From the NCBI GenBank assembly GCA_015660965.1, contig JACTVG010000011.1:1-51084 (forward strand): a stretch of DNA of 51,084 nucleotides, read 5' to 3'. Below are positions 10,628 to 34,756 of the stretch, one piece after another. The notes below the pieces were generated by a model that did not search any database, was not told the origin of the DNA, and saw only the letters and a program-made list of their open reading frames with translations. The stretch is from Methanoregulaceae archaeon. GTDB taxonomy: Archaea; Halobacteriota; Methanomicrobia; Methanomicrobiales; Methanospirillaceae. The position numbers and the translations under genes were made by a program. Numbering within the stretch: the first letter of the stretch is position 1; every line of letters starts with the position of its first letter.

Positions 10628-12316
10628 TTATCTTGCCGGAATAATTAGAGAGCGTTCTCCCGAGGGCATGAACTCGCGGATAGCACCCTTTGCGAACTCG
10701 CGGCGTATTTCTGAGAAGTCGAACGTGAGCGATGGGTCGGCGAATGTGACCTTGATCAACGGGGACAGCGCCCATGCATCGTGACGTGCAATGTGTGCAG
10801 CGCCTGCGATACCGGCATATCCTCCCTGGTGACCGACATTCATCGCGTAGTTCGGGTAGTTCGGGCCACGGAGTTCTCCGAGCAATCCCTCATCTGAACG
10901 GTAAGACAACGTGTTTGCGGAACCACACTGATCCTGCAGATCGTAGCCGTAGAATCCGAGACGTGACCAGCCTTCCTTGTGCAGGAGCATCGACATGTAC
11001 CAAGCATTCAATCCAGCGTTGGAGTTAGCAGTTGCTAGTGCAGCTGTGACACCCGATGCGGCGGCAAGAACCGTCGCACGCTGGGATCCTCCAAAGTGGT
11101 CTTCGAGGGTGGTTGGGAACTGTTCGTATTGCTCCATACCATAGAGCGTAACCTCGGTTGCGATGTCGTTGCAGACGTCTTGGGTTGCCTTTGTCTGTGC
11201 AAGTCCCTTGTATTTTTGTTTGACGTAGTCAACACCATACGAGGTGAAGTCATCAAGGATGTTGTCAGTGTAGGCGGCGGTTGCATACTGAGTGAACCCG
11301 ACACCACCGGACATGTAAGAGCCGAGCCAAATCTGGTCGAACAGCATACATCCAGCGGCAACGATTTCAAGGGATGACCTTACCGGGTCGTTCGGGTACT
11401 TGCGGTCTGATTGAACCATATCGGCGAAGTGTCCGAACTTGATACCACCGGGTTCGTTGGGTCCACGGGCACGGCGAGCTGGTAAAATAGTTGCCATCTC
11501 AACCATACCGGCGTGCTTAGCTGTGAATGCTAGATCGGCGACTGCTGCTTCACCAGCACACATGTGGTAAGCACCGATGAATGACATACCAATCTGCATC
11601 GCAGACCATCTTGAGGTAGTACCACCATCACAGGTACGACTAACGATGGTCGGGATGTGGATTGCTTGGTACATCGATTTGCCGAGTGCAGCCTTGAGCG
11701 ACTCTGCACTCTTCTTCGGGAAGAGCTTGTCGAGATTGAGTACGAATTGGGGTTCAAGATCGTCTGCCATCTCGTCGTCGCCAGTGAAGACCTTAACATA
11801 ACAGTCATCACATAGCGCCGGGTGGGTCTCGACCATGTGCTCCTGAACGACTGCCGCACCGGGCATTGCGTGGTTGAGCACGTGGAGATACTCGTTGATG
11901 GTTTCCGGGGTGACCTCCTTGCCTAGACGCTTCTGGAGAGTCTGGTGTGCGAGGTCAAGTCCGACAATAATGGTCCTGCGGATATCGTCCCACATCTGCT
12001 GCATCGCAGCATTGTTGACGAAGTGTAGATCGTCACCCTCAGCAAAGACGCCAGTTGTGCTGACCTCATAGGGAGTCAGCTTGCGCTGTCCGAGCGGGAT
12101 ACCGCCAATGTGACAGCGAACGGGGTCGTATGCCGAGATACCGCGCTCCATGGCAACTGTTTGTCCCTCTTTTACAAATTCCATCTTACGTGGGGACTGC
12201 TTAAGACCCAAACGGAGATACGTTGTTCTCTGGGACTCTGGATCCTCTTGGAACTTATCCCTCATTGCCTTAAGGAACAGTTTCTGGGTTCTTTCAATTT
12301 TTGCTTTTGCTGCCAT
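10628..12316 (-). CDS. mcrA: Methyl-coenzyme M reductase alpha subunit
   Basis: 562 residues, the full-length catalytic subunit that forms methane from methyl-CoM and CoB at nickel cofactor F430. Matching motifs to the Methanothermobacter enzyme from memory, Gln158 (AAVVQEH) would be the axial nickel ligand and Tyr344 (FTQYATAAY) an active-site tyrosine. The sites of modification are present: His268 (AKHAG), Arg282 ([13 protein letters not shown]), Gln412 (GGSQRA), Gly457 for thioglycine (GFYGYDL) and Cys464 (QDQCG). Whether each is modified cannot be seen. It is the last gene of mcrBDCGA, six bases after mcrG, and ends before an oligo-T terminator. High G+C codon use compared with flanking DNA suits a highly expressed gene. 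Confidence 0.98.
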
Positions 12317-13730: not shown

Positions 13731-13732
13731 AT

Positions 13733-14203: not shown

Positions 14204-14220
14204 TTCGTATCCGGTGGGGT

Positions 14221-16769: not shown

Positions 16770-16778
16770 GTCTTCACC

Positions 16779-18491: not shown

Positions 18492-18493
18492 GA

Positions 18494-19810: not shown

Positions 19811-19811
19811 T

Positions 19812-20219: not shown

Positions 20220-20225
20220 ACTCCG

Positions 20226-20651
20226 TTATTTATTGAACTCCTTGATTGGACTTGGCCCTAGTTCATTGATGGTCGTGACCACATCGGTTATGACTTTTCC
20301 CCATTTTGCTCCTTCAGATGCCGAGACAAAGGTCATTCTGAAGCGGCGGTCGTCAAGTCCAATGCTTTTCATCAGACGTTTAACCATAAACATCCGCTTT
20401 GCTCCTTTGAAGTTGCCCTCGAGATAGTGGCAATCTCCAAAATGACAGCCTGATACAAGAACACCATCCGCACCATCTGCAAAACATTTCAAGACAAAAA
20501 GTGCGTCAATACGTCCAGAGCACATTACACGAACGATTCGGACATCAGGTGGATACTGTATACGGCCACCACCGGCAAGGTCAGCACCAGCATATGAGCA
20601 CCAGTTGCAGAGAATACCAAGGATTTTGGGTTTCCACGTTTCATCTGCCAT
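20226..20651 (-). CDS. mvhD: MvhD-type electron-transfer iron-sulfur subunit
   Basis: 141 residues with five conserved Cys: ILCNWCSYAGADLAG (~residue 14), VMCSGRID (~44) and SGCHFGDCHY (~67). These bind the [2Fe-2S] cluster of MvhD, the small protein that passes electrons from a hydrogenase or formate dehydrogenase to HdrA. No hydrogenase subunit genes (mvhA, mvhG) are present in the window, so the electron donor is encoded elsewhere; formate dehydrogenase is plausible in this order. It starts directly at the end of hdrA and precedes fwdD. Confidence 0.95.
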   Translation of the reverse strand: MADETWKPKILGILCNWCSYAGADLAGGGRIQYPPDVRIVRVMCSGRIDALFVLKCFADGADGVLVSGCHFGDCHYLEGNFKGAKRMFMVKRLMKSIGLDDRRFRMTFVSASEGAKWGKVITDVVTTINELGPSPIKEFNK

Positions 20652-22802
20652 TTACCGTTCCCCCCCAAGGAAAAATGCATCGATTTGAGCAACGATCTGG
20701 GGCGTGGCAAAGTGGTTCATCCAAATTGCACCACCAGGGCAGAAACCACCGCAAGTACCACAACCTTTACACTTTGCTTCAGTGACCTCCATGACCTTAC
20801 GTCCGTCTTTCTCAACAAGAGCAAGAGCACTATATGGACAGAGGTTTACGCACATGCCACATCCTGCGCATTTTTCTTCAATACACATTGCGAAGTATGG
20901 TTCAAGTTCGACCTCTCCTTTGTGAATTGGAATACTAGCTGCAGAGGCAGCTCCTTCTGCCGATGAAACAGTGTCTGGGATATCTTTCGGTCCTTGACAG
21001 ACACCGGCAATGAAGACGCCGGCAGTTGTGGTTCCGCACGGGTTCAGCTTGGGGTGGGCTTCTAGCAGCCATCCATCACTCGAACACGAAACACCGAATA
21101 ATTTGCGTGTCCTATCGGTGTCCCATCCGGGCTGCACAGCTGCTGCGAGCACGACAAGATCGACTTCCATATCGACCGGCCGGTTGAGCAGTGTATCGTC
21201 CGCATAAACGTGCAGATTCTTCGTTGCTGGATCTTCGAGGATGTTTGCTACACGTCCGCGGATGAACTTAGCGCCTTCGTCTTGGATGCGGTAGTAAAAT
21301 TCCTCATACATCTTACCGAATGAACGTATGTCCATATAGAAGAGGTACGAGGCAACACCGGGAATCTTCTCATAAATTTGGTGTGCGTGCTTTAAGGAAT
21401 ACATGCAGCAGAATCTTGAACAGTACGGTTTGCCAATACCGGCATTGTCACGGGAGCCGGCGCAGAGCACGAATGCAACTCTCTTAGGCGTCTCACCATC
21501 ACTTGGGCGGATGAGGTGACCGCTGGTCGGACCGGATGCACAGATCAGTCGCTCGAATTCAAGGCTCGTGACGACATTCTCATAAGTCTTGTATCCCCAT
21601 TCAGTCTTCTTTTCAATCGGGAAAAGATCAAATCCTGTAGCAAGAATGGCGGTTCCGACCTTGACCTTGACAAATTCATCCTTTTGTTCGAGGTCGATTG
21701 CTTTCTTCTCACCGCATGCCGTTACACACAGACCACACTTAACACAGGAGTCCCAATCAATGGTATAGAGAAGTGGAACAACCTGTGGGTGATATATGTA
21801 AATTGCCTTCCGCGGTTTCATTCCCATCTCAAACGGATTGGGCTTGATGACCGGGCAGACCGGTTCACAGTCACCACAGCCATTGCAACCGCCGCCAACA
21901 ATACCCTTTGCCTCCGCTTCTGGCATCGACAGGACACCGCGGGCTTTTTTGCGGATGGTCACATCAAAGTTGCCAATAAACCCTTCGACAGATTCGACAT
22001 CGCAGTAGGTCATTAGTTCGATATTGGGACTTCTACCAACATCCACCATCTTTGGTGTCAGGATGCATTGCGAACAGTCGAGTGTCGGGAACGTTTTGTC
22101 GAGCTGGGACATGCGTCCACCGATACTCGGGCTCTTTTCGATGAGGTATGTCTTGATTCCAGCCGCCGCGAGATCGAGCGCTGCCTGCATTCCTGCAATA
22201 CCGGCACCGACAACCATTGCCGCTTTCTCAACAGACACTGTCTTCGGGGTGAGGTCCTGTAGGAGCGAGGCCTTAGCAACAGCGATACGTACAGCATCCT
22301 TTGCCTTTTCGGTAGCTGCCTCTTTGTCATGCATGTGCACCCACGCGTTTTGCTCGCGGATGTTTGCCATCTCAAACCGGAACGGGTTTAGGCCACCCTC
22401 CTTTGTTGCGGTTCTGAATGTCGGTTCGTGGAGACGCGGGGAACATGCAGCCACAACAGTTCCGGTGAGCTTTTGCTCTTTGATGGCGTCAGTAATTTTC
22501 TTTTGGCCCGGTGTGGAACAAATATACTGGTAGTTATCAGCATGGACCACATAGGGCAGGGTCTTTGCATACGCTTCAACCGCTTTGATATCAATCGAAC
22601 CGGCTATGTTGGTACCACAGTGACAGATGAATACGCCAATGCGTGGTTTAACCTTCGGCCCGGTTGTAACCGGAACCTTCGCGGGTGCCTGCGTTTTAGC
22701 TTCCATTTTTACTGGAGCTTCCTGTTTTACGGGGGCTTCGTGTTTGACTTCCTGCTTCTTTGCTTCTGTTTTCTTAGTACTTGCTTTCTTCTTTTCTGCC
22801 AT
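20652..22802 (-). CDS. hdrA: Heterodisulfide reductase subunit A
   Basis: About 716 residues. The core begins near residue 53 (RIGVFICHCGTNIAG) and holds the FAD-binding GAGIAGMQAALDLA motif (~165). The family cysteine segments DCSQCILTPKM (~205) and GCNGCGDCEPVCP (~270) follow, then CVKCGLCVTACG, and two C-terminal ferredoxin motifs CAGCGMCVNLCP and CKGCGTCGGFCP. HdrA is the flavin electron-bifurcating subunit coupling heterodisulfide reduction to ferredoxin or Fwd reduction. I start at 22802 (MAEKKKAST) with GAGGTGAGAAAG upstream; an ATG at 22862 would overlap hdrB. Residues 1-52 form an unusual Lys/Ala/Pro/Glu-rich tail. Confidence 0.96.
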   Translation of the reverse strand: MAEKKKASTKKTEAKKQEVKHEAPVKQEAPVKMEAKTQAPAKVPVTTGPKVKPRIGVFICHCGTNIAGSIDIKAVEAYAKTLPYVVHADNYQYICSTPGQKKITDAIKEQKLTGTVVAACSPRLHEPTFRTATKEGGLNPFRFEMANIREQNAWVHMHDKEAATEKAKDAVRIAVAKASLLQDLTPKTVSVEKAAMVVGAGIAGMQAALDLAAAGIKTYLIEKSPSIGGRMSQLDKTFPTLDCSQCILTPKMVDVGRSPNIELMTYCDVESVEGFIGNFDVTIRKKARGVLSMPEAEAKGIVGGGCNGCGDCEPVCPVIKPNPFEMGMKPRKAIYIYHPQVVPLLYTIDWDSCVKCGLCVTACGEKKAIDLEQKDEFVKVKVGTAILATGFDLFPIEKKTEWGYKTYENVVTSLEFERLICASGPTSGHLIRPSDGETPKRVAFVLCAGSRDNAGIGKPYCSRFCCMYSLKHAHQIYEKIPGVASYLFYMDIRSFGKMYEEFYYRIQDEGAKFIRGRVANILEDPATKNLHVYADDTLLNRPVDMEVDLVVLAAAVQPGWDTDRTRKLFGVSCSSDGWLLEAHPKLNPCGTTTAGVFIAGVCQGPKDIPDTVSSAEGAASAASIPIHKGEVELEPYFAMCIEEKCAGCGMCVNLCPYSALALVEKDGRKVMEVTEAKCKGCGTCGGFCPGGAIWMNHFATPQIVAQIDAFFLGGER

Positions 22803-22812
22803 CTTTCTCACC

Positions 22813-23730
22813 TCACAGGACCTTTTGCAGGAATGGCTCACAGCTGATCCCATGAAGATCAAGCCCGAGGTCCTGCGGACTCATTCCCTGCGCCAGTCCT
22901 AAAAGCTCAGCATAGTGCAGGACGGGGAGATCGTACGTAACACCAAATTTTTCCTTAATTTCAATTTGGCCGCGGTCGAACTGGAGCTGACAGAACGGGC
23001 AGATATCCGTCAGTGCATCCACCTTGACCTCTTTGAGGTTGATCATCTTCTCGTTGGTGATATCCAGCGAGTGCACGATATCGTATCCTCGGACACCGCC
23101 ACCAGCACCACAACACTGCATCTTGTTCCGGTACTCCACCGGTGTTGCGCCAAGAGCGGCAACCAGCTCTTCCATCCAGGTCGGGTGTTCGGTATTCAGC
23201 ATTGACTCCTTTTCGAATTCCCGGTCCTTGTGGGGCTTCATCAGGTGACAGCCATAATGGACAGCGATGCGTGCCCCTTTGAGTGGGTTGGTGACGCTGT
23301 CGCGGACTTTCTGGACACCAATGAACCTTTCATTGTAGAGAAGTTCTGCAGTATGGTAGACATTGATAGTGCCCTTATACTCCATGTCGAGTTCTTTGAG
23401 CACCTCATTGACGCCATCTTTAAGGTCCTTGTTGTGCTTGAGCTTGTGGTTGACCTCCCAGATGGACTTATAACACCCGTTGCAGAGTAGGGCGATGTCC
23501 ATCTTCATTTGTTCAGCGAGGACTAGGTTTCGGGCTGCCATTGCATAGAATACATTGAGGTCGATTGAACCGAATGCGCCGGGTGCCGGGCAGCAGCTTG
23601 CACCCTTAAGGGGTACCAGATCAACACCGAGTTTTTTCATGGCCTTGATGGATGCGGCTTCGCAGCCAGGGTACCGGTTCGGGGCAATACAGCCAAGATA
23701 GAATGCGAACGTGTGTTTTGCTTCTGACAT
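22813..23730 (-). CDS. hdrB: Heterodisulfide reductase subunit B
   Basis: 305 residues with two CCG domains. The first has YLGCIAPNRYPGCE (~residue 12) and GASCCPAPG (~45) followed by LCNGCYKS. The second has HYGCHLMKP (~155) and MQCCGAGGG (~205), then DICPFCQLQ. These bind the two noncubane [4Fe-4S] clusters that cleave the CoM-S-S-CoB heterodisulfide. It partners with HdrC upstream (six-base gap) and HdrA downstream. The pattern of CX31-39CCX35-36CXXC is satisfied by eye. Confidence 0.97.
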   Translation of the reverse strand: MSEAKHTFAFYLGCIAPNRYPGCEAASIKAMKKLGVDLVPLKGASCCPAPGAFGSIDLNVFYAMAARNLVLAEQMKMDIALLCNGCYKSIWEVNHKLKHNKDLKDGVNEVLKELDMEYKGTINVYHTAELLYNERFIGVQKVRDSVTNPLKGARIAVHYGCHLMKPHKDREFEKESMLNTEHPTWMEELVAALGATPVEYRNKMQCCGAGGGVRGYDIVHSLDITNEKMINLKEVKVDALTDICPFCQLQFDRGQIEIKEKFGVTYDLPVLHYAELLGLAQGMSPQDLGLDLHGISCEPFLQKVL

Positions 23731-23736
23731 GGTATC

Positions 23737-24318
23737 TTACCCCTCCCTCTCCTTGACAATTCGGTCAGCATTTGCCTTCAGTTTGTAGTGGTCCAAAATC
23801 TTCTGGATTCCCTTAACATATTCAGGATACATATGGGTTGTTGGCGGATCACGGGTGAGACCGAGTCTCTCACGTGCCGCTCTATTAACATCATTATTTG
23901 GCACACCATGTCCAGAACTATAAATCGCCTGAACGGTTTTTAGGAAGTTGACCGGTATTATATCCCTCTTAAATGCGAGGTTTCTCATTGCCATAATTAC
24001 ATCTGTTGGTGCGATATCGCGTGGGCATCTATCTGTACAGCTGTAACAAGTCGTACATAACCACAGATCCGGATCTGTCAACGCTTCATTTTCTAATCCA
24101 AGCACAGCTCTCCGCATAAAATGACGGATCCTGTACGTGCTACGAGGTGCGGATGGGCATGACCCAGTGCATGTACCGCACTGAAAACACATGTGTGCGA
24201 TGGTGCGTGAAATTGCCTTTACTTTCGGGAGAAATTCAGGATTTGAATCCTCACGGTAATATCGCTGATCATGGAGCTTTTTCTCCAGTGCTTCTGGATA
24301 ACCTTTTTTCCTTACCAT
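23737..24318 (-). CDS. hdrC: Heterodisulfide reductase subunit C
   Basis: 193 residues with two [4Fe-4S] ferredoxin motifs, CFQCGTCTGSCP (~residue 43) and CTTCYSCTDRCP (~88). The soluble HdrC delivers electrons from HdrA to the catalytic HdrB. There is no membrane segment, so this is the cytoplasmic HdrABC type. It lies nine bases after the polyferredoxin gene and six before hdrB. Confidence 0.96.
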   Translation of the reverse strand: MVRKKGYPEALEKKLHDQRYYREDSNPEFLPKVKAISRTIAHMCFQCGTCTGSCPSAPRSTYRIRHFMRRAVLGLENEALTDPDLWLCTTCYSCTDRCPRDIAPTDVIMAMRNLAFKRDIIPVNFLKTVQAIYSSGHGVPNNDVNRAARERLGLTRDPPTTHMYPEYVKGIQKILDHYKLKANADRIVKEREG

Positions 24319-24327
24319 GGTGTCGCC

Positions 24328-25500
24328 TCACACCTTTCCCATTTCCTTCAGAGAAACCTGTCCAGTAATATCCTCTTTAACCTTCGAAGTTCTCTTGGTG
24401 AAGAGTTTTTCCTTAATCTTTTTGAACAGGTCAGTCTCGGTACCTTTCATGCGCACGCCAGTTCTTTGCATGATGATAATATCCTCACCTGGGCATGCAT
24501 TTACACATGCACCGCACAAAATGCAGAAATCTTTGTTAACTGCGATGGTGGATTCGATCTCGTGCTTCATCTCGGCCGCGGGTTTTGGAGTTGGGAGATA
24601 GATCGCATTTGCCGGGCAGATCTCAGCACACGTGGAGCAGCCACCAGGACATTTTTCGGCGTGGAATTCAATATCCCCTTCAAAGATTTTCTCGACAGTA
24701 ATTGCTTCGGGGGGGCAGTTCCGTGAACACCACTGACAGGTACAACAGTTATCTTGGATAATGTCGACTTTACCATCAACCTTATCTGAGATAATCTCTC
24801 GTTCAACGATGATACATTCTTCAGGACAAGCTTCGACACAAACTTTACATGCATCGCATTTTGTCTCATCCCAGATGACATCGCCTTCGACTTTACCACT
24901 TTCAGCAGTGAATTCTTTGTGCTTTACAACGATTGCCGGACAAAGGGCACCGCAAAGACCGCAATATGTGCATTTCTCTTTATCGACGGTAAAAGTCGTC
25001 TTCGTCTTGATTGCGGTTTGACGTTCTTTCGCATTTAAAACAGGTTCCTTGTATGTACTTTCATAAGCAGGGACATCGCGATTAATGGCTTCACGTGGAC
25101 AAACTTCTTCGCAGATTGTACACTTGACACACTTCTCATTATCGATCTCTGCCTTCATATCATACTGGGGGAACCCCTCCTTTTCAATGATGGGGAGCCT
25201 TTCCTGTCCGTCTACCTTCAGAGTCAATGCATTGAACGGGCACATGATAACGCAGACCCCACAATACGAGCACTTGACCTCGTCAACATCTATAGGGGCA
25301 GCGTAGTCAATGGCACCACGCTTTGCAGCTCCAACGAGACCGAGCACAATGGCTTCTTCGGGGCATGCTTCAACGCAGATGCCACATCCGGTGCAAGTCT
25401 CTGAATTTAGAACTAGGTTGTTAACGGTCTGAAGGAGACGCTGCTCCATCACAACGTTTAAACCATCTCTCTTTTTTGAAAACTTTGGAAACAATGGCAT
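24328..25500 (-). CDS. fwdF: Formylmethanofuran dehydrogenase polyferredoxin subunit F
   Basis: 390 residues containing eight cysteine motifs, among them CTGCGICVEACP, CSYCGVCVIMCP, CVKCTICEEVCP, CTYCGLCGALCP, CDACKVCVEACP and CCTCQWCSRNCP. The other two are CPGGCSTCAEICP and CILCGACVNACP. Each can bind a [4Fe-4S] cluster, matching the eight-cluster FwdF that wires the formylmethanofuran dehydrogenase to Hdr. The seventh motif has an extra Gly (CPGGC), a small deviation. It follows the small ferredoxin fwdG by 23 bases and precedes hdrC by nine, consistent with a physical Fwd-Hdr connection. Confidence 0.93.
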   Translation of the reverse strand: MPLFPKFSKKRDGLNVVMEQRLLQTVNNLVLNSETCTGCGICVEACPEEAIVLGLVGAAKRGAIDYAAPIDVDEVKCSYCGVCVIMCPFNALTLKVDGQERLPIIEKEGFPQYDMKAEIDNEKCVKCTICEEVCPREAINRDVPAYESTYKEPVLNAKERQTAIKTKTTFTVDKEKCTYCGLCGALCPAIVVKHKEFTAESGKVEGDVIWDETKCDACKVCVEACPEECIIVEREIISDKVDGKVDIIQDNCCTCQWCSRNCPPEAITVEKIFEGDIEFHAEKCPGGCSTCAEICPANAIYLPTPKPAAEMKHEIESTIAVNKDFCILCGACVNACPGEDIIIMQRTGVRMKGTETDLFKKIKEKLFTKRTSKVKEDITGQVSLKEMGKV

Positions 25501-25523
25501 ATTTTAACCCTCACGCTGTTCCT

Positions 25524-25790
25524 CTATTGTACCTTTGCCTGAACTCTGGACTCCCAGGGTCCTGTCAGCTTAATAACATCGTGCGGACATGCCTCGACAC
25601 AAACGCCACAACCGGCGCAGAGCTCACCTTTAAAGTCAAGAACAACAGATTTTCCGTCCTTAACTTTGTAGATCTTGTCTTTTGATGAAGGATCTACCGT
25701 GTGCAGCTCCAATGCGTCCACAGGACACGCAACAACACAATTGTTACAGCCGGTACAATTTTCTATGTTTATATGCACTGCAAATGTCAT
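25524..25790 (-). CDS. fwdG: Formylmethanofuran dehydrogenase ferredoxin subunit G
   Basis: 88 residues with two [4Fe-4S] motifs: CTGCNNCVVACPVDALELH (~residue 12) and CAGCGVCVEACPHDVIKL (~58). As the first gene of the operon and adjacent to the polyferredoxin it is best called FwdG/FmdG. It likely carries electrons between FwdF and FwdB. Generic 2[4Fe-4S] ferredoxin function is the alternative. Promoter elements lie 90-110 bases upstream. Confidence 0.88.
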   Translation of the reverse strand: MTFAVHINIENCTGCNNCVVACPVDALELHTVDPSSKDKIYKVKDGKSVVLDFKGELCAGCGVCVEACPHDVIKLTGPWESRVQAKVQ

Positions 25791-25878
25791 TTTTTTTCAC
25801 GCACCAGCTATAATCGATTCTAAAAATCGACTATCACAAGATGGTTAAGAAATGTAGATAAATGTTCTGAAATTACAT

Positions 25879-25902
25879 GGTATATATACAAAAAAATATA
25901 CC
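25879..25902 (-). promoter_or_regulatory. TATA region with inverted repeat upstream of the fwd-hdr operon
   Basis: GGTATAT at 25879 is repeated in inverted form as ATATACC ending at 25902, with a 10-base A-rich centre. TATATATA (25881-25888) is a candidate TATA box on the minus strand, ~91 bases before fwdG. An overlapping symmetric arm could be a regulator site. The region lies between the divergent fwdG and ftr genes. Confidence 0.4.
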
Positions 25903-26055
25903 TATTTTTTAAATTAGTAAACTTAGTCATTGGTAAATGTTAATTTCTTTTATTTTACTTTTTGCCCTATTTTTTATGCGCTAAAAATTCTTAGATTAAT
26001 TTAGAAAATTTATTCTATAGTTATCATTCAACTGTTGTGGTACCGGAGGTTATTT

Positions 26056-26943
26056 ATGGAAATCAACGGCGTTACAATTGACAACACCTATGCCGAGGCA
26101 TTTCCGACATGGATCTGTCGGATTATAATTACGGCGGTCACCCAAGAATGGGCATTCAAAGCTGCAACAGAGGCGACTGGTTTTGCAACATCTGCTATTG
26201 GCTGTCCTTGCGAAGCGGGTATTGAAAATGAATTCATTCCTGGGAATGAAACTCCCGATGGGAGACCAGGCGTTTCGATCCTGATTTGCGCAAGTAAAAA
26301 GAAGCTGAAAGAACAGGTTGTCGAACGTCTTGCTGAGTGTGTTCTTACAGCCCCAACAACGGCAGTGTTCAATGGCATTCAGAATGCAGAAGAAAAAATA
26401 CCCGTCAAACTTCACTTCTTTGGAGATGGATACGAATACCAAAAGGAAGTTGGAGGAAGAAAATGTTGGGTTATTCCCATCATGAACGGTGAATATATCG
26501 GTGAGGAAGAATTCGGCATGGTAAAGGGGGTAGCAGGGGGCAACTTCTTTGTTATGGGTGAAAATCAAATGGCAGCATTGATGGGTGCTAAAGCGGCATC
26601 AGATACAATTGCAAAAGTCAAAGGTGTCATAACCAGTTTCCCGGGAGGAATTGTTGCAAGTGGTTCCAAAGTAGGGAGTTTAAAGTATAAATTCATGGTA
26701 GCATCTACAAACGAAAAATATTGTCCAACACTTCGCGAAAAGGTCCCTGATAGCAAAGTTCCAGCTGGAATCAAAGCTATTTACGAAATCGTTATTGATG
26801 GCCTAGATGAGAAATCCGTTGCAGAAGCAATGGCAACTGGTATCAAGGCAGCATGTAAAGTTCCGGGTGTAAAATTTATTTCTGCCGGAAATTTCGGTGG
26901 CACTCTAGGGCCATTTAAGATTGAGCTTCATAAAGTTCTTTAA
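26056..26943 (+). CDS. ftr: Formylmethanofuran:tetrahydromethanopterin formyltransferase
   Basis: 295 residues from MEINGVTIDNTYAEAFPTWI, the typical Ftr N-terminus. Other signatures are GFATSAIGCPCEAGIE (~residue 43), NETPDGRPGVSILICASKK (~65) and SAGNFGGTLGPFKI near the end. It transfers the formyl group from formylmethanofuran to H4MPT, the step after Fwd. I use the ATG at 26056 because ACCGGAGGTTATTT lies just upstream; an upstream frame start at 26035 has none. The gene is divergent from the fwd operon and monocistronic. A TATA-like box may lie near 26006-26016. Confidence 0.96.
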   Translation: MEINGVTIDNTYAEAFPTWICRIIITAVTQEWAFKAATEATGFATSAIGCPCEAGIENEFIPGNETPDGRPGVSILICASKKKLKEQVVERLAECVLTAPTTAVFNGIQNAEEKIPVKLHFFGDGYEYQKEVGGRKCWVIPIMNGEYIGEEEFGMVKGVAGGNFFVMGENQMAALMGAKAASDTIAKVKGVITSFPGGIVASGSKVGSLKYKFMVASTNEKYCPTLREKVPDSKVPAGIKAIYEIVIDGLDEKSVAEAMATGIKAACKVPGVKFISAGNFGGTLGPFKIELHKVL

Positions 26944-27060: not shown

Positions 27061-27987
27061 ATGATCCGGGGTTTGAGGCGGCAAGATCGTATGAAGACTA
27101 TTTCTGAACCCTATGTTATTAATTACCCGCGGATTTGTGCGGTTGCGGATCAAACGGGAAGTAGGCTAGAATTATTTGAGTTCTTTGATTGTGTAGGGGG
27201 AGCGATGTGGTCAAAGAAGCAATATGCACAGAGTCCGCTTGTAGAATCTGTTCGTTGTGTTGGCAATATTATGCGGTATATGCTTAGGCCGGGGCATGTT
27301 GATCTTGCACTTGAAGGTTCAAAGTTCCCTGCAGGAATATCAGATGTTGCAGTCGATGACCGAGAGATTACGATCACCTATATCGGTATGGGCGGTGGTG
27401 GTGTAGGAGCGGCTGCGTGTCGTAGTGAAGCAGAAGGAGTCTTGAGGAGCAGAAGTGACGAATCTGGCGGTGGGAAAGTTGCGGGTTCTACAATTTGGCT
27501 TCCTCGTCGACAGCGGGTAGTAATTGGTGTTGATGACACAGATACCCCAGAAGAGGGAGCAACATGGACTCTAGTCCATAACATTGCAAAGACTGTAGAA
27601 GACAAAAATTCAGTCTATCTCTCGCATACGATTGTCCAGTTGTACCCAGTACCATATAAGACAAAGAATTGCGTCAGTTTAGTGGTCGAATTTGCATCCA
27701 CAGAACCGAAACAACTTATCGAAAAATTTCAAAGGCTTCTCAAACGGTACACACTTTCTGACAAGACCGGTATGGCGACATACATTGGTTTTTCACCTTC
27801 GAAACAGTTGATCGCGTTTGGGAGGATGGTCAAACGTGGGGAGATCAAACTTAAGTTACTAAACTCACTTCATGACGATCATCTATCGATTATTATGGAA
27901 GGCCGGGGTATTATCGGCGCTGTTGCCGCACTTCCCTTCTATACAAAATACGCGGAGGCTCTAGAATTATGCAATGGAGAGATCTAA
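27061..27987 (+). CDS. Methanogenesis marker protein 11
   Basis: Up to 308 residues; an ATG at 27091 (MKTISEPYVINYPRI) may be the true start. The acidic motif GVDDTDTPEEGATWT (~residue 156) resembles the ATP-binding core of tRNA(Ile2) 2-agmatinylcytidine synthetase TiaS, to which marker 11 is distantly related. A Gly-rich GMGGGGVGAAAC segment is near residue 109. The family occurs in methanogens and has no assigned reaction. It is the first gene of the coenzyme B operon and overlaps the next gene by 19 bases, so a role in cofactor synthesis is a reasonable inference. Confidence 0.87.
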   Translation: MIRGLRRQDRMKTISEPYVINYPRICAVADQTGSRLELFEFFDCVGGAMWSKKQYAQSPLVESVRCVGNIMRYMLRPGHVDLALEGSKFPAGISDVAVDDREITITYIGMGGGGVGAAACRSEAEGVLRSRSDESGGGKVAGSTIWLPRRQRVVIGVDDTDTPEEGATWTLVHNIAKTVEDKNSVYLSHTIVQLYPVPYKTKNCVSLVVEFASTEPKQLIEKFQRLLKRYTLSDKTGMATYIGFSPSKQLIAFGRMVKRGEIKLKLLNSLHDDHLSIIMEGRGIIGAVAALPFYTKYAEALELCNGEI

Positions 27988-28937
27988 AGGCACACCTTCT
28001 AGAAATTGGCACCACTCGGCTCAGTGGAGTGTCTGCAGATGAATATATTGCCGAATCAACCGCGGGTCCCGGAGCAGGTGGTAAGGGGGCCGTCTTCTTT
28101 TCTATGGGAACTCATCGTGTCAAACTTGCTCTCAATGCCACGAGTCCAATTGAAATCATCCATCGAGGTGGTGGAATAGCAGATCTGTATTTCGATAGTT
28201 CTATGAGATCGGGACGTCTTTTGCAACCGGGTCTCCATTGTCCTGAACAGGCATTTATTACAGTAACAGAACGCTGTGTCTTCCATTGTCGTTACTGTCA
28301 GGTGCCCAATCATCCAGGGCATCGCAAAAGTATTGAAGAAATTATTTCCCTTATCGAATCTGTTCGGCATAGAGTTAAAGCGATTGCGATTACAAGCGGT
28401 GTTCTGAAAAATATCGAAGAGGAAGAGGTATATGTACTGGAAGTAGTTCGTAATATACTCCAGTTCAATCTTCCAATAGGGGTATCAATTTATCCAACAG
28501 AACAGACTCCCGATCGGCTTCATTCTCTCGGTGTTGTTGAAGTAAAATTCAATATTGAAGCAGCGACTCCGCGAATTTTTGGATCGATGTGCCCTGATCT
28601 TGATTACGATCTCATCTGGGGAGTTCTCGAACGTTCTGTGAAGCTTTTTGGTAAGGGACGGGTTTTTTCAAATGTAATTATCGGACTAGGTGAAACTGAT
28701 TTAGAGATGGAGCAATGCATAAAACGGTTAACCTCTCGTGGTATACTCCCAGTTCTACGTCCGCTCAACCCCGTTGCGGATCTCGCTGGAACACCACGCC
28801 CATCAGCGGAACGACTTAAAAAGATCTTTTCTGTGCATCAGCGTGCACTCCAAGATACTGGATTAGATACACGGCAGGCACTTACGATGTGCACGAACTG
28901 CGCTGGATGCGATCTTGTGCCATGGAGGGACGAATGA
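27969..28937 (+). CDS. Radical SAM protein in the coenzyme B operon
   Basis: 322 residues. The radical SAM motif is C103-V-F-H-C107-R-Y-C110, giving CX3CX2C. Downstream, SIYPTEQTP (~177) and EVKFNIEAATPRIFG sit where BioB/HydE/HmdB-like enzymes have barrel strands. A C-terminal CTNCAGCDLVPW motif could bind an auxiliary cluster. The general shape resembles biotin-synthase-like enzymes; I cannot name the reaction. GCGGAGG lies 11 bases before the ATG. The stop overlaps the next start by four bases. Coenzyme B needs a thiol introduced at C7, so a sulfur-inserting role is conceivable but only inferred from position. Confidence 0.85.
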   Translation: MQWRDLKAHLLEIGTTRLSGVSADEYIAESTAGPGAGGKGAVFFSMGTHRVKLALNATSPIEIIHRGGGIADLYFDSSMRSGRLLQPGLHCPEQAFITVTERCVFHCRYCQVPNHPGHRKSIEEIISLIESVRHRVKAIAITSGVLKNIEEEEVYVLEVVRNILQFNLPIGVSIYPTEQTPDRLHSLGVVEVKFNIEAATPRIFGSMCPDLDYDLIWGVLERSVKLFGKGRVFSNVIIGLGETDLEMEQCIKRLTSRGILPVLRPLNPVADLAGTPRPSAERLKKIFSVHQRALQDTGLDTRQALTMCTNCAGCDLVPWRDE

Positions 28938-30205
28938 GAGGTACAGAAGTTGTTGCCAAAGCATTGCGTACCTGTGCAGATACTTTCTATACTGTTCCGG
29001 GCTATCCCGTGACTGAAATAGCTGAGATTCTTCATGCTGAACTCGTCATCAATGAGAAGGTGGCTCTTGAATATGCACTTGGGGACTCTATCGCTGGTAG
29101 ACGATCTGTATTAATCATAAAAAATGTGGGGCTTAACGTTTGTGCTGATCCTTTAGTCAATGCTACAACTCAAGGATTGCGGTCAGGAGTAGTAATCATT
29201 GCTGGAGATGATGTTTTAGCTAAAGGTTCGCAAAACACTCAAGATTCTCGTTATTATGGTGAGGTTGCACAGGTTCCCGTCATTGAACCGAATAAAATCA
29301 ATTGTGTTTCTGCAATTGCGTCTGCTTTTGAGGCATCAGAACATTTTTCAAGAGTTGTAATTGTTCGAGTGACTCCTCAATTACTGGAAAATGAAGCGGT
29401 AATGGGTGCATGTAAACGACAGGGTGTTCAAGGAAAACTAGCAGATCCAAATCTTACAATGCGAGGGCGGTCACAAGCAGCAGAAAAATTAACTTCTGCG
29501 ATGTTTGAATGGTCTCGTTCATCTCCCCTAAATGACTTTAAAGGTGGTGTTGTGGGTGTTGGAGCAACTGAAGGCGATTCACATGTAGCGACAGTTTATC
29601 CGCCCCCAGCAAAGACGGCAACTCTTGCTCGAACAAACGAACTTGGACGATCTTTTGTACATGAGCATCGATGCATTAAGGCCCAGAATTTCAAGGACAA
29701 GCCGGAGACCTATACAAAACGGGGACATTATCGTACCTTCTGTCGTGAATGCCCGTTCAAACCTTTGATTCAGAAATTAGTAGACCGAAAAATGTCCGTT
29801 ATCTGTGATATGGGGTGTTCTGTTCTAGCAACAAATCCACCTTACCGCATAGGTGTTGCCTGTTATGCCCTTGGGTCATCGATTGCTGTTGCAGCAAGAA
29901 GCACTCAAGTAGCACTAATAGGTGATTATGCACTCCTGCATTCTGGAATCAACGCACTTATTGATGTTTACGAGAAGCACCGTCCCCTTCTTTGTATTGT
30001 TCTTAAGAATGATCGGATGGGTATGACTGGTGGTCAGGAAATCTATGATCTTTTACGATATCTGACATGGGCAAAGCCAGTAGTATGCCGAGCAGATAAT
30101 GAACGGAACTTGAACAAAGAGCTCGTGGTAACGAAAACACCACGCACATTGATTGTCGAAGGGATGTGTCCCAAAGGTTGTAATCATGAAACCGTGGAAT
30201 GTTGA
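28934..30205 (+). CDS. IorA-like thiamine pyrophosphate enzyme (candidate 2-oxosuberate decarboxylase)
   Basis: 423 residues. The N-terminal PYR domain has NEKVALEYALGDSIAG with probable catalytic Glu41, then KNVGLNVCADPLVNAT and GSQNTQDSRYYG. A linker holds TFCRECPFKPL (~269). The PP domain has the GDYALLHSGINALID motif (330) and LKNDRMGMTGGQ, with Asn359 as probable metal ligand. These match indolepyruvate:ferredoxin oxidoreductase alpha. However, the C-terminal 2[4Fe-4S] domain is absent and no iorB lies nearby, so a non-oxidative 2-oxoacid decarboxylase is more likely. Start at 28934 gives an ATGA overlap and a GGAGGGA site. Situated just before aksA, it may decarboxylate 2-oxosuberate. 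Confidence 0.85.
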   Translation: MRGTEVVAKALRTCADTFYTVPGYPVTEIAEILHAELVINEKVALEYALGDSIAGRRSVLIIKNVGLNVCADPLVNATTQGLRSGVVIIAGDDVLAKGSQNTQDSRYYGEVAQVPVIEPNKINCVSAIASAFEASEHFSRVVIVRVTPQLLENEAVMGACKRQGVQGKLADPNLTMRGRSQAAEKLTSAMFEWSRSSPLNDFKGGVVGVGATEGDSHVATVYPPPAKTATLARTNELGRSFVHEHRCIKAQNFKDKPETYTKRGHYRTFCRECPFKPLIQKLVDRKMSVICDMGCSVLATNPPYRIGVACYALGSSIAVAARSTQVALIGDYALLHSGINALIDVYEKHRPLLCIVLKNDRMGMTGGQEIYDLLRYLTWAKPVVCRADNERNLNKELVVTKTPRTLIVEGMCPKGCNHETVEC

Positions 30206-31316
30206 GATTTGCGATGTTACCTTGAGAGATGGCGAGCAAACACCAGGCGTTTCGTTTTCTTGCGAGGAAAAGGTTGAGATAGCTCAAATGATTGACGCAA
30301 TCGGTATCGAGCTCATTGAAGCTGGATTTCCTGCTGTCTCTCCTAATGAAAAGAAATGCGTTAAGACAATTGCAAATTTGGGTCTTGATGCTCGTATTTG
30401 TGGTTTTGCCCGAGCTAAGGAACCCGACATCAGTACCGCAATTGATTGCGATGTTGATATGGTGAGTATCTTTATCCCCACATCAGATCTCCACATTAGG
30501 CTCAAGTTCAAAAAACCTCGGGAACAGGTACTCGAAGAAGCATTAATGACAATTGATTATGCTCGTGATCACGGTGTTCAGGTAAGGTTTGCTGCTGAAG
30601 ATGCATCCCGCACAGACCTTTCCTTTTTAAAAGAGGTTTACCATGGAGCTGAGGAACACGGTGCCGTACTCCTTAGTTTTGCCGATACGGTTGGTTGTCT
30701 TCTTCCGATGGAAATGTATCATATAATGAGTGACCTCGTGCACACGATGAAAACCCCCCTCTGTGCCCATTGTCATAATGACATGGGCTGTGCCGTAGCA
30801 AACACCCTTACAGCAGCGGAAGCTGGGGCGTACCAATTACATACCACGGTGAACGGTATTGGTGAACGATCGGGCAATGCTGCACTCGAAGAAGTGCTTA
30901 TTGCACTCCGTATGAAAGGGGGTATTGACCGATATGATCTTTCCCACCTTACAAAGCTCTCGAAGATGGTGGAAAAGTATGCGGGTATTACACTTCCCCG
31001 GAACAAACCCGTTGTTGGGGAGCTTGCGTTTTCCCATGAGAGCGGTATTCACATTGCAGCGATTCTTGATGATCCCTCCACCTATGAATACTTCTCTCCA
31101 GACCTTGTTGGGTCAGAACGGCATTTCATTCTCGGAAAACATACTGGAAAGAAAGCACTTGAGTATGTAGTTTCATCGATAGGATGTGAGTTATCTGAAA
31201 AGCAGATCTGTCGTGTGCTTGATTTAGTAAAGGAACATTCTGAACAAAAGTGCAATATCACACCAGTGGTTCTAAAAAAACTGATTAAAAAAGCGATAGA
31301 GGAAAAGCCAGAATGA
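30186..31316 (+). CDS. aksA: Homocitrate synthase AksA
   Basis: 376 residues of the LeuA/NifV/HCS family. CDVTLRDGEQTPGVSFS (~residue 9) carries the metal-binding Asp and Arg. AHCHNDMGCAVANTLTAAEA (~195) supplies metal-ligand His, followed by TVNGIGERSGNAALEE. With acetyl-CoA it extends 2-oxoglutarate, then the C6 and C7 homologues, in making 2-oxosuberate for coenzyme B. I start at 30186 (MKPWNVEICD). It overlaps the upstream gene by 20 bases and aksD by four. Specificity (AksA, not isopropylmalate or citramalate synthase) is inferred from the neighbouring aksD/E/F. Confidence 0.9.
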   Translation: MKPWNVEICDVTLRDGEQTPGVSFSCEEKVEIAQMIDAIGIELIEAGFPAVSPNEKKCVKTIANLGLDARICGFARAKEPDISTAIDCDVDMVSIFIPTSDLHIRLKFKKPREQVLEEALMTIDYARDHGVQVRFAAEDASRTDLSFLKEVYHGAEEHGAVLLSFADTVGCLLPMEMYHIMSDLVHTMKTPLCAHCHNDMGCAVANTLTAAEAGAYQLHTTVNGIGERSGNAALEEVLIALRMKGGIDRYDLSHLTKLSKMVEKYAGITLPRNKPVVGELAFSHESGIHIAAILDDPSTYEYFSPDLVGSERHFILGKHTGKKALEYVVSSIGCELSEKQICRVLDLVKEHSEQKCNITPVVLKKLIKKAIEEKPE

Positions 31317-32524
31317 GTACTTTATCAGAGCGAATCCTCAAAGCCCCGGCGGGAGAGTATGTTGATCGAAAGGTGGATCGTGCCTATGTGCATGATGGTA
31401 CAGGAGTGCTCACACTTGAGGCATGGAAAAATATGGGGAAACGAGGGCTTCATGACCCTTCGTCTCTTTCGGTCATTTTCGATCATATAGTCCCAGCAAA
31501 CAATTCGACTACAGCAGCTCTTCAGCATGAGCTGCGAGGGTTTGCACTTTCCTCTTTCATGAACTTTTTAGATATCGGAGAGGGGATCTGCCATCAGTGC
31601 ATGAGTGAAGGTGTAGTGCTCCCCGGGGAAATCGTTGTAGGTGCTGATTCACACAGCTGTACTCTTGGGGCTTTTGGAGCATTTGCAACTGGTGTGGGTG
31701 CGAGTGACATGGCAGCGATCTGGATGAATGGCGAGACTTGGTTCCGGGTTCCAGAGACAATTGGTATCCATCTAACTGGAAGTCTTGAAGGAGCAACAGA
31801 AGCAAAAGATTTGGCACTCAAATACGTGGGTGAGCTCGGTATGGATGGGTCGACTTATCAATCACTTGAATTCATTGGCGAGAGTGCGAAAGGATTGTCG
31901 ATTGATGATCGGCTTGTTCTTTGTAATCTTGCGGTTGAGACCGGAGCAAAGACAGGAATGTTCTACGCCGATAATGTCACCAAAAAATACCTCGCTGAAT
32001 TTGGTCATACAATCGTTCCACAACTACCGGAATCATGCAATTATGTGAAAGAGCTTGAAATTGAGTTATCGGATATTGTGCCACTTATAGCCGTTCCACC
32101 GCGAGTTGATACTGTAAAACCCGTTCACGATTTAGCGGGACTTCCTATCGATCAAGTTTTTGTTGGTACCTGTACAAACGGGAGGTATTCCGATCTCGTT
32201 AGGTTTGCAAGTATTGTTAAAGGGAATAAGGTCTCTGTACGAACCATTGTCGTTCCCGCTTCACGTACAACACTCACAGAAGCGATTCGGACAGGACTAC
32301 TCGCAGATATTGTAAAAGCGGGATGTGTGATCGGTATTCCAGGCTGTGGACCTTGCCTCGGTGCCCATATGGGTGTCATTGGTGAAGGTGAAGTCTGTTT
32401 ATCAACAGCAAACCGGAATTTCAAAAATCGAATGGGGGTGGGTGGGCAGATTTACTTATCATCGGTATCAACTGCTGCAACGAGTGCGATTATAGGTGAA
32501 ATAACTGAGCCGGGGGTTTTTTAG
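31313..32524 (+). CDS. aksD: Homoaconitase large subunit AksD
   Basis: 403 residues of the aconitase/LeuC family. GADSHSCTLGAFGAFATGVG (~residue 111) is a substrate-binding block. The [4Fe-4S] cysteines are in VGTCTNGRYSDL (~284) and GIPGCGPCLGAHMG (~343). It hydrates and rehydrates homocitrate and its longer homologues to the homoisocitrate series. It forms a two-subunit enzyme with AksE, which follows immediately. The four-base overlap with aksA (ATGA) indicates coupling. The alternative, isopropylmalate isomerase, is disfavoured by the small subunit loop. Confidence 0.92.
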   Translation: MSTLSERILKAPAGEYVDRKVDRAYVHDGTGVLTLEAWKNMGKRGLHDPSSLSVIFDHIVPANNSTTAALQHELRGFALSSFMNFLDIGEGICHQCMSEGVVLPGEIVVGADSHSCTLGAFGAFATGVGASDMAAIWMNGETWFRVPETIGIHLTGSLEGATEAKDLALKYVGELGMDGSTYQSLEFIGESAKGLSIDDRLVLCNLAVETGAKTGMFYADNVTKKYLAEFGHTIVPQLPESCNYVKELEIELSDIVPLIAVPPRVDTVKPVHDLAGLPIDQVFVGTCTNGRYSDLVRFASIVKGNKVSVRTIVVPASRTTLTEAIRTGLLADIVKAGCVIGIPGCGPCLGAHMGVIGEGEVCLSTANRNFKNRMGVGGQIYLSSVSTAATSAIIGEITEPGVF

Positions 32525-32995
32525 ATGCACGGTAAAGGAAAAGCAGTATGTTTAGCTGCAGATATTGATACCGATTTGGTTATCGCAGGACGATATTTAC
32601 GCACAAAAGACCGCAGTTTATGGGGGCAACATGTGTTTGAAGATCTTGATCCCAAACTTGCCCCGCGATTGAAAGGGTCCGTAATTGTTGCAGGGAAGAA
32701 TTTTGGTTGTGGCTCATCACGAGAGCAAGCAGCGATAGCATTGCACGAGGCAGGAGTACTTGCAGTCGTTGCTCCTACCTTTGCTCGCATCTTCTTCAGA
32801 AATGCGATCAATATAGGCCTTCCTCTAATTGAATCTAACCTTAACTGTATAGATGGACAGATTGTTTCATTCGATCTCAGTTCTGGGTGGGTAGAATCTG
32901 GTGGGAAACGAAGAATGGTTCGTGCCCTTTCACCGCGAATGCTCGATATTCTCAAGGCTGGTGGATTAATCGAATATTGGAAGGGAAAACGATGA
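32525..32995 (+). CDS. aksE: Homoaconitase small subunit AksE
   Basis: 156 residues of the LeuD-type swivel domain. The GSVIVAGKNFGCGSSREQAA motif (~residue 56) is conserved. The specificity loop reads Y24-L25-R26-T27; YLRT, rather than the YLVY-type loop of isopropylmalate isomerase, is the reported determinant of homoaconitase activity in Methanocaldococcus. That supports the aks assignment of the whole operon. The gene starts right after the aksD stop and overlaps the next gene by four bases. Confidence 0.93.
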   Translation: MHGKGKAVCLAADIDTDLVIAGRYLRTKDRSLWGQHVFEDLDPKLAPRLKGSVIVAGKNFGCGSSREQAAIALHEAGVLAVVAPTFARIFFRNAINIGLPLIESNLNCIDGQIVSFDLSSGWVESGGKRRMVRALSPRMLDILKAGGLIEYWKGKR

Positions 32996-33795
32996 TCTTC
33001 CCTAAACAATGCAAAAATGTGGGTTTTGCTTCGACACAACCTTGTGGGCAAATGGTCTACTTTTTAAGTCGATATCTTGTTCACCCTATAGATGATGGAT
33101 TCGAGATCCTTGAAGTTGAATTTGATCCCGATGAAAAAGGCATGATGCGACACATTGTAAAGTCAAGGGTGATCTCTAAGAAAAGTGAAGTATATCGATA
33201 TCCAGATAAAGTGCAAATTAATGATCGAACTCGGCTCATTCAGCTAGCTCTTGATTCTAGATATCGGTGTACGATTTTCTTTGGACTCGACGAACATATG
33301 ACTTTTGTGCTTGACCCAGATCTTTCAGACCTTTTAAAGATTCATGTGTACGATTCAAGTCCCCCAAGACCGAGCCTTTCTGCATGCATCCGCGACCTAG
33401 AATCCTGTGGACTATTCGGTGATTTAAACGTAATATTCTGCCATCATATACTCGATATTTCGCAGATGAAAGCAGATGTTTATCCTTGTCGTGCAGCTGG
33501 GTTTACTCGTACTCTTGATGCAGATGCTGTAAAAGGAAATGAGAGAGTTGCTGGATGTTTGACTGGTTCACAATTAATGGGTGAATGTTATGGTACTAAT
33601 TTTGAGCTACTCAACATCTGTCCGCTTTCCGCAGTTAATGAAGAACCATTTATTGCTCGATGCTGTCGCTCTGACCGAGAAGGTAAGGGAACTTATAACG
33701 GAAAACAAGGGATAGTGGTGCATTGGGGTGCATCTCCGTGGCAGATTTCAGAATCAATCTTTTCACTCACAAAGGAGTGGAGGAAGCATGCCTAA
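32992..33795 (+). CDS. Unknown 267-residue protein within the aks operon
   Basis: Not recognised with confidence; I think it is a methanogen-specific domain of unknown function. It starts at 32992 with an ATGA overlap and ends inside aksF's start (eight-base overlap), so it is clearly an operon member. Noteworthy residues are many Cys and His: CKNVGFASTQPCGQ near the start, LESCGLFGDLN, FCHHILDISQ, YPCRAAGFTR, VAGCLTGSQLMGECYG, LNICPLS and ARCCRSD. The end reads GIVVHWGASPWQISES. No membrane segment or signal peptide is seen. The metal/thiol-like composition and location make it a candidate for a late coenzyme B step. Confidence 0.85.
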   Translation: MIFPKQCKNVGFASTQPCGQMVYFLSRYLVHPIDDGFEILEVEFDPDEKGMMRHIVKSRVISKKSEVYRYPDKVQINDRTRLIQLALDSRYRCTIFFGLDEHMTFVLDPDLSDLLKIHVYDSSPPRPSLSACIRDLESCGLFGDLNVIFCHHILDISQMKADVYPCRAAGFTRTLDADAVKGNERVAGCLTGSQLMGECYGTNFELLNICPLSAVNEEPFIARCCRSDREGKGTYNGKQGIVVHWGASPWQISESIFSLTKEWRKHA

Positions 33796-34756
33796 AATTG
33801 CTATTGTTGAAGGAGACGGCATCGGTCATGAAGTAATCCCTGTTGCAAGAAAAGTATTGGAACTAATCCATCCTGATTACGAGTATTACAATGTTGATGT
33901 CGGTTACCATCGATGGGAAGAAATAGGTTGTCCTTGTGCCGATCGCGATATTGCAGTACTCAAGGAAGCTGATGCTATTTTGTTTGGAGCAGTAACCACT
34001 CCGCCAATGAAAAATTATCAGAGCGTCATCCTTCGAATCCGAAAAGAACTTGACTTATATGCAAATTTGCGTCCAGTAAAGGCAAATGGTTTTGACATAA
34101 TGATCGTACGAGAAAATACTGAAGGTCTTTACTCAGGCATAGAAGAAATCGGTCCTGATCGTGCAACAACTTTGCGAGTGGTAACAAGAAAAGGTACAGA
34201 GCGAATTGCCCGTTTAGCTATCCAACTTGCAAAGGCTAGAAAATCTCTTACAGTGGGACATAAAGCCAATGTCCTGAAGTCTGATGTTTTCTTCCGGGAT
34301 ATTTGTCTTGCAGAGGCAAAAGCTGCAGGTATAATATGTAACGAGAAATTTATTGACGCCCTAGCACTCGATATCCTCCAACATCCTGAATCTTATGACG
34401 TCGTTGTAACAACCAACATTTTTGGAGATATTCTTTCAGATGTTGCCTCTTACCTTGTTGGTGGATTGGGCTTATTACCAAGTGAGAATATAGGTGACCG
34501 TTTTGCACTTTTCGAGCCAGTTCATGGTAGTGCTCCAGATATTGCAGGAAAAAATATTGCAAATCCGATAGCAGCCATAAGAAGTGCTGCTATGTTACTT
34601 TCATACCTTGGGGATGTTGTGGGTGCGGAACGCATTGAACATGCGATTCAACAAGTCGTTACAAAGGGTGTGAAGACGAGAGATCTTGGTGGGACTGCTG
34701 GAACGCGAGAATTTGGTGCAGCCGTAGCCAATGCGATCAACCTAACCAAGGGATAA
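33788..34756 (+). CDS. aksF: Homoisocitrate dehydrogenase AksF
   Basis: 322 residues, isocitrate/isopropylmalate dehydrogenase family. IVEGDGIGHEVIPVA is at the N-terminus, and LYANLRPVKA (~residue 90) and VRENTEGLYSG (~107) bind the substrate. GHKANVLKSDVFFRD (~158) and TTNIFGDILSD (~205) follow, the latter with metal Asp residues, and HGSAPDIAGKNIANP (~255) lies near the NAD site. It oxidatively decarboxylates homoisocitrate and longer homologues to 2-oxoadipate, 2-oxopimelate and 2-oxosuberate. Start at 33788 with a strong GGAGTGGAGG site. Last gene of the operon. Confidence 0.92.
   Translation: MPKIAIVEGDGIGHEVIPVARKVLELIHPDYEYYNVDVGYHRWEEIGCPCADRDIAVLKEADAILFGAVTTPPMKNYQSVILRIRKELDLYANLRPVKANGFDIMIVRENTEGLYSGIEEIGPDRATTLRVVTRKGTERIARLAIQLAKARKSLTVGHKANVLKSDVFFRDICLAEAKAAGIICNEKFIDALALDILQHPESYDVVVTTNIFGDILSDVASYLVGGLGLLPSENIGDRFALFEPVHGSAPDIAGKNIANPIAAIRSAAMLLSYLGDVVGAERIEHAIQQVVTKGVKTRDLGGTAGTREFGAAVANAINLTKG

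Follow-up and report, generated by a model that had tools for sequence, protein, structure and literature searches.

The window, which is the whole stretch of DNA analysed here (51,084 nucleotides of contig JACTVG010000011.1, assembly GCA_015660965.1, from a Methanoregulaceae archaeon), contains an operon of eight genes in the order MMP11, rSAM, TPP, aksA, aksD, aksE, DUF7714, and aksF (Table 1), where MMP11 is methanogenesis marker protein 11 and rSAM is a radical SAM protein. The operon occupies positions 27091–34756 and, with gene starts assigned from the sequence, all neighbouring genes in it overlap or abut; the ORFs of MMP11 and rSAM overlap by 19 nt. A preliminary description of this DNA had reported two overlapping genes coupled to a TPP enzyme and to aks genes. 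Both ORFs were confirmed on the plus strand, and the coupling continues through aksF.

Table 1. Genes of the operon and selected upstream genes in the window.
Feature	Coordinates	Strand	Remarks
mcrA	10628..12316	-	
ftr (formylmethanofuran:H4MPT formyltransferase)	26035..26943	+	Conserved neighbour upstream
MMP11 (methanogenesis marker 11)	27091..27987	+	Tool-listed ORF 27061-27987; likely start ATG 27091, from alignment with homologues; TIGR03280 match
Radical SAM protein (rSAM)	27969..28937	+	CX3CX2C and C-terminal CX2CX2C
TPP enzyme	28934..30205	+	Related to indolepyruvate oxidoreductase alpha subunit; predicted 2-oxosuberate decarboxylase
aksA-like, homocitrate synthase family	30186..31316	+	
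aksD-like, homoaconitase large subunit	31313..32524	+	
aksE-like, homoaconitase small subunit	32525..32995	+	
DUF7714 protein (PF24830)	32992..33795	+	XcbA-family similarity weak
aksF-like, homoisocitrate dehydrogenase	33788..34756	+	

Core methanogenesis genes are clustered just upstream of the operon (10628–26943), where mcrA is joined by further mcr genes, hdr-type genes, and ftr; ftr itself is not part of the coenzyme B (CoB) pathway. The TPP enzyme of the window scored 157.7 bits with the indolepyruvate oxidoreductase alpha profile TIGR03336, below the cut-off of 650.9, and a sequence search of the PDB up to E 0.1 found no match for it.

The MMP11 sequence matched the TIGR03280 (methan_mark_11) profile with 341 bits (cut-off 255.8), and positions 1–291 of the 292 profile positions were covered. 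The GVDDTDT motif named in the preliminary description is present, and Pfam detected the TiaS domains TiaS_TCKD (PF22641, 53.6 bits, cut-off 27) and TiaS_FLD (34.7 bits, cut-off 21) in the second half of the protein; the full TiaS profile NF040849 gave 18.6 bits, below its cut-off of 600. A profile search with MMP11 retrieved four TiaS chains (E 1e-7 to 2e-12), and below E 1e-6 it yielded TiaS chains only. In the structural model of MMP11, built from 35 sequences (pLDDT 85.3, pTM 0.87), residues 140–294 resemble TiaS entries (Z 14.3–17.0), whereas no unrelated entry exceeded 7.3. The best structural match was 3amu (Z 17.0, rmsd 2.2 over 143 residues), and Foldseek likewise matched the model with TiaS (E 1.6e-6 to 4.1e-5). 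Residues 1–140 made no contribution to the TiaS match. When this N-terminal domain (~140 aa) was modelled alone (pLDDT 84.9), neither Foldseek (threshold E 0.001) nor VIA-align (all Z at or below 4.3) gave a clear match.

The synthetase TiaS makes a C–N bond through O-phosphorylation followed by amine attack. Thr18 of the TiaS chain 4rvz, the autophosphorylated residue, corresponds in the alignment to the GATW threonine of MMP11, which is invariant in 20 MMP11 sequences. In addition, DDTD and GAT[W/F] are kept in all 14 MMP11-family sequences aligned by eye. Judging from the model, the C-terminal half of MMP11 is a TiaS-type ATP-using kinase domain with an ATP phosphotransfer fold, and the protein looks like a small kinase. 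With such a fold MMP11 is not plausible as a thiol enzyme, and the earlier suggestion that it takes part in the C7 thiol step is not supported. In a phylogenetic tree of 108 sequences with TiaS as the root, three clades were resolved, namely, MMP11 (58 sequences, support 0.997), MMP11b (24 sequences, support 0.998), and MMP11c (25 sequences, support 0.927). No functional assignment of MMP11 was found in the available portions of the open-access literature.

As for the second gene, its product matched PF04055 (Radical_SAM) with 50.4 bits (cut-off 29.5). Both cysteine motifs given in the preliminary description are present: the CX3CX2C motif reads CVFHCRYC, and the C-terminal one is CTNCAGCD. 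All six cysteines are invariant in 19 homologues, distant Archaeoglobi-type ones included, and the C-terminal CX2CX2C is a likely ligand set of an auxiliary Fe-S cluster. The rSAM protein reaches no NCBIfam cut-off. The best profile was LipS2 (NF053743) with 63.3 bits (below the cut-off of 270), and this match covers the barrel only; the BioB profile TIGR00433 gave 23 bits (below the cut-off of 225). The previous label "biotin-synthase-like" is loose. An Archaeoglobi-type homologue of rSAM scored 231 bits with TIGR04043 (cut-off 303.7).

Among 19 further loci from the taxonomic order of the window (L033–L051), 18 carry the eight genes in identical succession, the exception being L045, which contains only MMP11b, MMP11, rSAM, and DUF7714. 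The link between MMP11 and the aks genes is thus more than chance. In three Methanocella-like loci (L064–L066), MMP11, TPP, and aks genes lie within 19 kb, and two of these loci also include rSAM. The link is weaker in other lineages: among 80 named loci of Methanosarcinales, Methanoperedens, or ANME-2 type, collected in one scan, aksA was found in five and aksD in one. Taken together, these counts show that the MMP11-aks link is largely order-specific. The MMP11-TPP link is wider: 73 of the 80 Methanosarcinales-type loci have the TPP gene directly downstream of MMP11 in the same orientation, and the pair is also found in 6/6 and 3/3 loci of two smaller families. No MMP11-TPP pair within 400 nt was found in seven other families with 15 MMP11-family genes. 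Two of the 44 loci (L037 and L067), in which the MMP11 ORF was lost to the overlap filter, were left out of the neighbour and pair counts. The co-localisation survey proposed in the preliminary description therefore gave a divided answer. Outside the order, MMP11 and the aks genes are usually unlinked, which is one half of what that description had named as evidence against its view, but the same TPP gene stands beside MMP11 in most of the Methanosarcinales-type loci. The rSAM gene of Methanosarcinales is located alone, apart from MMP11 and the CoB genes, and has no constant partner beside it.

The distribution of the two proteins was compared with that of McrA. Among 119 genomes of the phylum, MMP11 was over the cut-off in 59 and McrA gave a match (E 0.001 or better) in 74; comparison of the two lists by eye showed McrA in 54 of the 59 MMP11 genomes. 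MMP11 without a McrA match was found in G022, G029, G036, G115, and G043. In the four of these genomes whose neighbourhoods were examined (G022, G029, G115, and G043), the MMP11 and rSAM genes are adjacent; the pair was found in genomes without a McrA match at L059, L060, L063, and L069. The 20 McrA-matching genomes without MMP11 over the cut-off comprised 15 members of family f10, two of f12, two of f18, and G104, whose McrA match is at chance level. This absence, mainly in three families, counts against the assignment of MMP11 to CoB synthesis, as does its presence in the five genomes without a McrA match; where it is absent, another enzyme must perform the step or the genomes contain gaps. 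Of the 25 genomes searched with the rSAM profile, 24 reached at least 231 bits; these are the 21 McrA genomes, without exception, and G022, G029, and G043, which have no McrA match. The only genome without rSAM, G102, has neither MMP11 nor McrA, and the survey accordingly includes just one clear negative genome. Presence in all MCR-bearing genomes, as expected of a CoB enzyme, was thus observed for rSAM (21 of 21 searched) and not for MMP11.

Another expected property of a CoB enzyme is loss together with the aks genes in genomes that keep methyl-CoM reductase (MCR). MMP11 was over the cut-off in 150 of 159 genomes of the order. Five of the nine others were not counted as losses: G183 has an MMP11 fragment at a contig start and G190 a TPP match from contig base 1, both being cuts at contig ends; G124 (86% complete) has an aksA fragment on the DUF7714 contig; G125 keeps aksA and DUF7714; and G206 (94% complete) is without all of these genes, DUF7714 included. 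In the remaining four, namely, G186 and G188 of one genus and G133 and G134 of another family, MMP11, rSAM, the operonic TPP gene, and AksA are all missing. Their loss sites retain FTR-MMP11b-DUF7714 (G186 and G188), MMP11b-DUF7714 (G134), or DUF7714 (G133). The operon genes are intact in G185, G187, and G106, the other examined members of the G186/G188 genus. G186 and G188 contained no AksA/LeuA-type match, and G134 gave one weak match of 75 bits to the AksA query, true AksA scoring at least 460 bits. In the examined stretches of the four genomes, aksD, aksE, and aksF were absent as well. G186 and G134, the one genome examined in each lineage, carry mcrA, mcrB, and mcrG, 65–75% identical to those of the window, and therefore need CoB. 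The loss pattern expected of a CoB enzyme was thus found in four genomes from two lineages. It represents only two independent events and might include hitch-hiking in a block deletion.

Methanomicrobium mobile requires CoB, isobutyrate, isovalerate, and 2-methylbutyrate for growth, according to the available part of PMC10658910; section 3.1.3 of this source calls the "mobile" factor unknown, whereas an article that it cites, Kuhner 1991, has 7-mercaptoheptanoylthreonine phosphate in the title. G186 and G188 would correspond to M. mobile or its sisters, and the absence of AksA/LeuA-type proteins from them fits these needs. A weaker sign comes from G138 (97% complete), where MMP11, rSAM, and DUF7714 remain and AksA and the operonic TPP gene were not found; this pattern may indicate that the three remaining proteins act on a later intermediate. 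G118 shows a similar pattern, although it keeps an AksA at another site, and the completeness of G135 is just 85%.

XcbA is an enzyme of bacterial coenzyme M synthesis. The DUF7714 protein of the window scored 41.5 bits against the XcbA family (cut-off 150), and the G186 copy scored 63.8 bits; the role of DUF7714 may lie with coenzyme M or a different thiol. As a candidate for the C7 thiol enzyme it is weakened, because it is still present in each of the four genomes from which the others have disappeared. A protein of ~77 aa is encoded beside DUF7714 in three loci (L087, 8917–9150; L092, 4320–4550; L095, 5394–5624). It resembles part of rSAM, corresponding to 23–26% of the rSAM length with 25–29% identity.

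The neighbours of MMP11-family genes share a theme, which is threonine or threonine phosphate. In Methanocella-like genomes, cobD, cbiB, cobS, and a cobY-like gene are located directly upstream of MMP11, with a 4-nt overlap in L065; the cobD product (threonine-phosphate decarboxylase) scored 308 bits (cut-off 290.55). This cobD link, however, is confined to one family. At L075 and L076, genes for an ACT protein and homoserine dehydrogenase precede an MMP11 homologue, and at L069 the same two genes are followed by rSAM and then MMP11. The genome of the window has its own operon of ACT, homoserine dehydrogenase, and MMP11c genes (L077, 7319–9916, contig C4). MMP11c has an N-terminal winged helix, which is TrmB-like with 24.8 bits, just under the cut-off. 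The trio was present in 19 of 21 examined loci of the order; the other two (L185 and L187) each have one member not listed, probably hidden by the filter for overlapping matches. The ACT-homoserine dehydrogenase pair is absent at two Methanocella-like loci. In four Methanocella-like loci (L078, L080, L081, and L084), a cluster-159 (marker protein 4) gene comes after MMP11b, another instance of two marker proteins encoded side by side. The L080 copy, when scanned, proved to be MMP4 (MtxX, PTA_PTB-like), a phosphotransacylase-like protein.

Two wider roles of the family were considered and rejected. MMP11 is not a general threonine kinase of B12 synthesis, as CobD-like genes occur without MMP11 (294 bits in G025, 229 bits in G102). 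MMP11c as the missing homoserine kinase was tempting, as just 4 of 28 genomes have GHMP ThrB over the cut-off, but TIGR02535, the proposed homoserine kinase, is over the cut-off in 27 of the 28, and MMP11c is thus not required for this role. In G009, G018, and G043, TIGR02535 lies directly beside GHMP ThrB; perhaps one of them is misannotated, or the two divide the roles between them.

It is well supported that MMP11 and rSAM belong to CoB biosynthesis. The opinion of the preliminary description that both act in the same pathway as their operon partners gains good support from the gene order in 18 of 19 loci and from the joint loss with TPP and aksA in four genomes. The operon product would be CoB (7-mercaptoheptanoyl-O-phospho-L-threonine). 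AksA, AksD, AksE, and AksF would lengthen a 2-oxo acid to 2-oxosuberate, as established for these families, and the TPP enzyme would convert 2-oxosuberate to the semialdehyde by decarboxylation. The rSAM protein would most likely take part in placing the thiol on C7. MMP11, with its TiaS kinase fold, would be a late ATP-dependent phosphotransferase. Since the neighbours of the family point to threonine or its phosphate, a component of CoB, a kinase of threonine type is proposed; its target would most likely be the threonine hydroxyl, either on free threonine or on 7-mercaptoheptanoylthreonine. No genes are assigned to the CoB steps after 2-oxosuberate in section 14.5 of PMC3087415 or in the available part of PMC12068725, and the order of the last steps was not found in the open-access literature. 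The reading in which MMP11 is the late phosphotransferase, rSAM acts at the C7 thiol, and the TPP enzyme is the decarboxylase is given a probability of about 0.5.

Two alternative roles are proposed for MMP11, namely, provision of the phosphothreonine part of CoB or formation of the amide bond. In the second case, which appears rather unlikely, MMP11 would be a 7-mercaptoheptanoate-threonine ligase: an acyl phosphate would be formed and the threonine amine would then displace the phosphate, by analogy with the cytidine carbonyl and agmatine in TiaS. The TiaS fold with its kinase motif suits a ligase as naturally as a kinase, because the overall reaction of TiaS forms a C–N bond; MMP11b adjoins the phosphotransacylase-like MMP4; and the amide-forming step of CoB synthesis also has no assigned gene in the available parts of PMC3087415 and PMC12068725. 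A ligase, however, leaves unexplained the cobD operon link of Methanocella-like genomes, which needs threonine phosphate and not an amide. As for the thiol, it may be rSAM and not MMP11 that makes it, with sulfur from the C-terminal auxiliary cluster as in lipoyl synthase, and MMP11 would then only finish the molecule. This more specific scheme is tentative; it is compatible with the phosphotransferase reading, of which it is the least certain part. It agrees with LipS2 being the best NCBIfam profile, though far below the cut-off and on the barrel only, and with the invariant CX2CX2C in 19 homologues. Since rSAM has a strong match in every McrA genome searched and was lost with the operon, it is a possible and fair candidate for the C7 thiol step, better than MMP11; the earlier suggestion to this effect is somewhat strengthened. 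An aldehyde precursor would nevertheless call for reductive thiolation, which COG1900 proteins perform for other thiols, and rSAM also occurs in the three genomes without McrA. COG1900 proteins (MMP16, L-ASST) are suspected of the thiolation in CoB synthesis too, according to the available part of PMC12068725.

MMP11 and rSAM might instead serve MCR maturation or another process of methanogens and be merely co-transcribed with the aks genes. The location of MMP11 beside the McrA thioglycine genes ycaO and tfuA at L052, L061, and L062 would suit such a role, but it is improbable: G186 and G134 lost MMP11 and rSAM together with the CoB genes while keeping mcrA, mcrB, and mcrG, which argues for CoB and against maturation, and the TPP link, mostly without aks genes, points to a metabolic step. 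A broader scheme seems doubtful as a whole. In it, the TiaS fold would have founded archaeal hydroxy amino acid kinases (MMP11, MMP11b, and MMP11c); MMP11 would make phosphothreonine for CoB, and certain lineages would use it for B12 as well; MMP11c, with its winged-helix fusion and homoserine dehydrogenase operon, would act on threonine or homoserine; and rSAM would install the C7 thiol in nearly all MCR-bearing archaea.

If marker protein 11, rSAM, and the TPP enzyme have a place in CoB synthesis, they become candidates for most of the missing steps at once, and the dependence of some methanogens on outside CoB receives an explanation at the gene level. Each step could be tested in genetically tractable methanogens by CoB feeding. 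A small-molecule kinase of TiaS type would also extend a fold that structure searches matched only to an RNA-modifying enzyme.

Compared with TiaS (tRNA-Ile2 agmatidine synthetase), the C-terminal half of MMP11 has the common fold, DDTD, the Thr18 position, KT, and GxxIGA. MMP11 is shorter, however, the rest of TiaS is unmatched, and the ~140 aa N-terminal domain is its own; a separate TiaS-like gene exists in the genome of the window. With the GHMP kinases PduX and ThrB, MMP11 would share a hydroxy amino acid substrate, as proposed above, but it gave no match to the GHMP profiles of either NCBIfam or Pfam. The rSAM protein has the radical SAM barrel in common with the LipS2, variant rSAM, and MSMEG_0568 families; it differs in staying below the curated cut-offs and in the C-terminal CX2CX2C, which is conserved in its own group. 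As for the CoB aks pathway of methanogens (AksA/D/E/F), its aks-type genes share the operon with MMP11 and rSAM.
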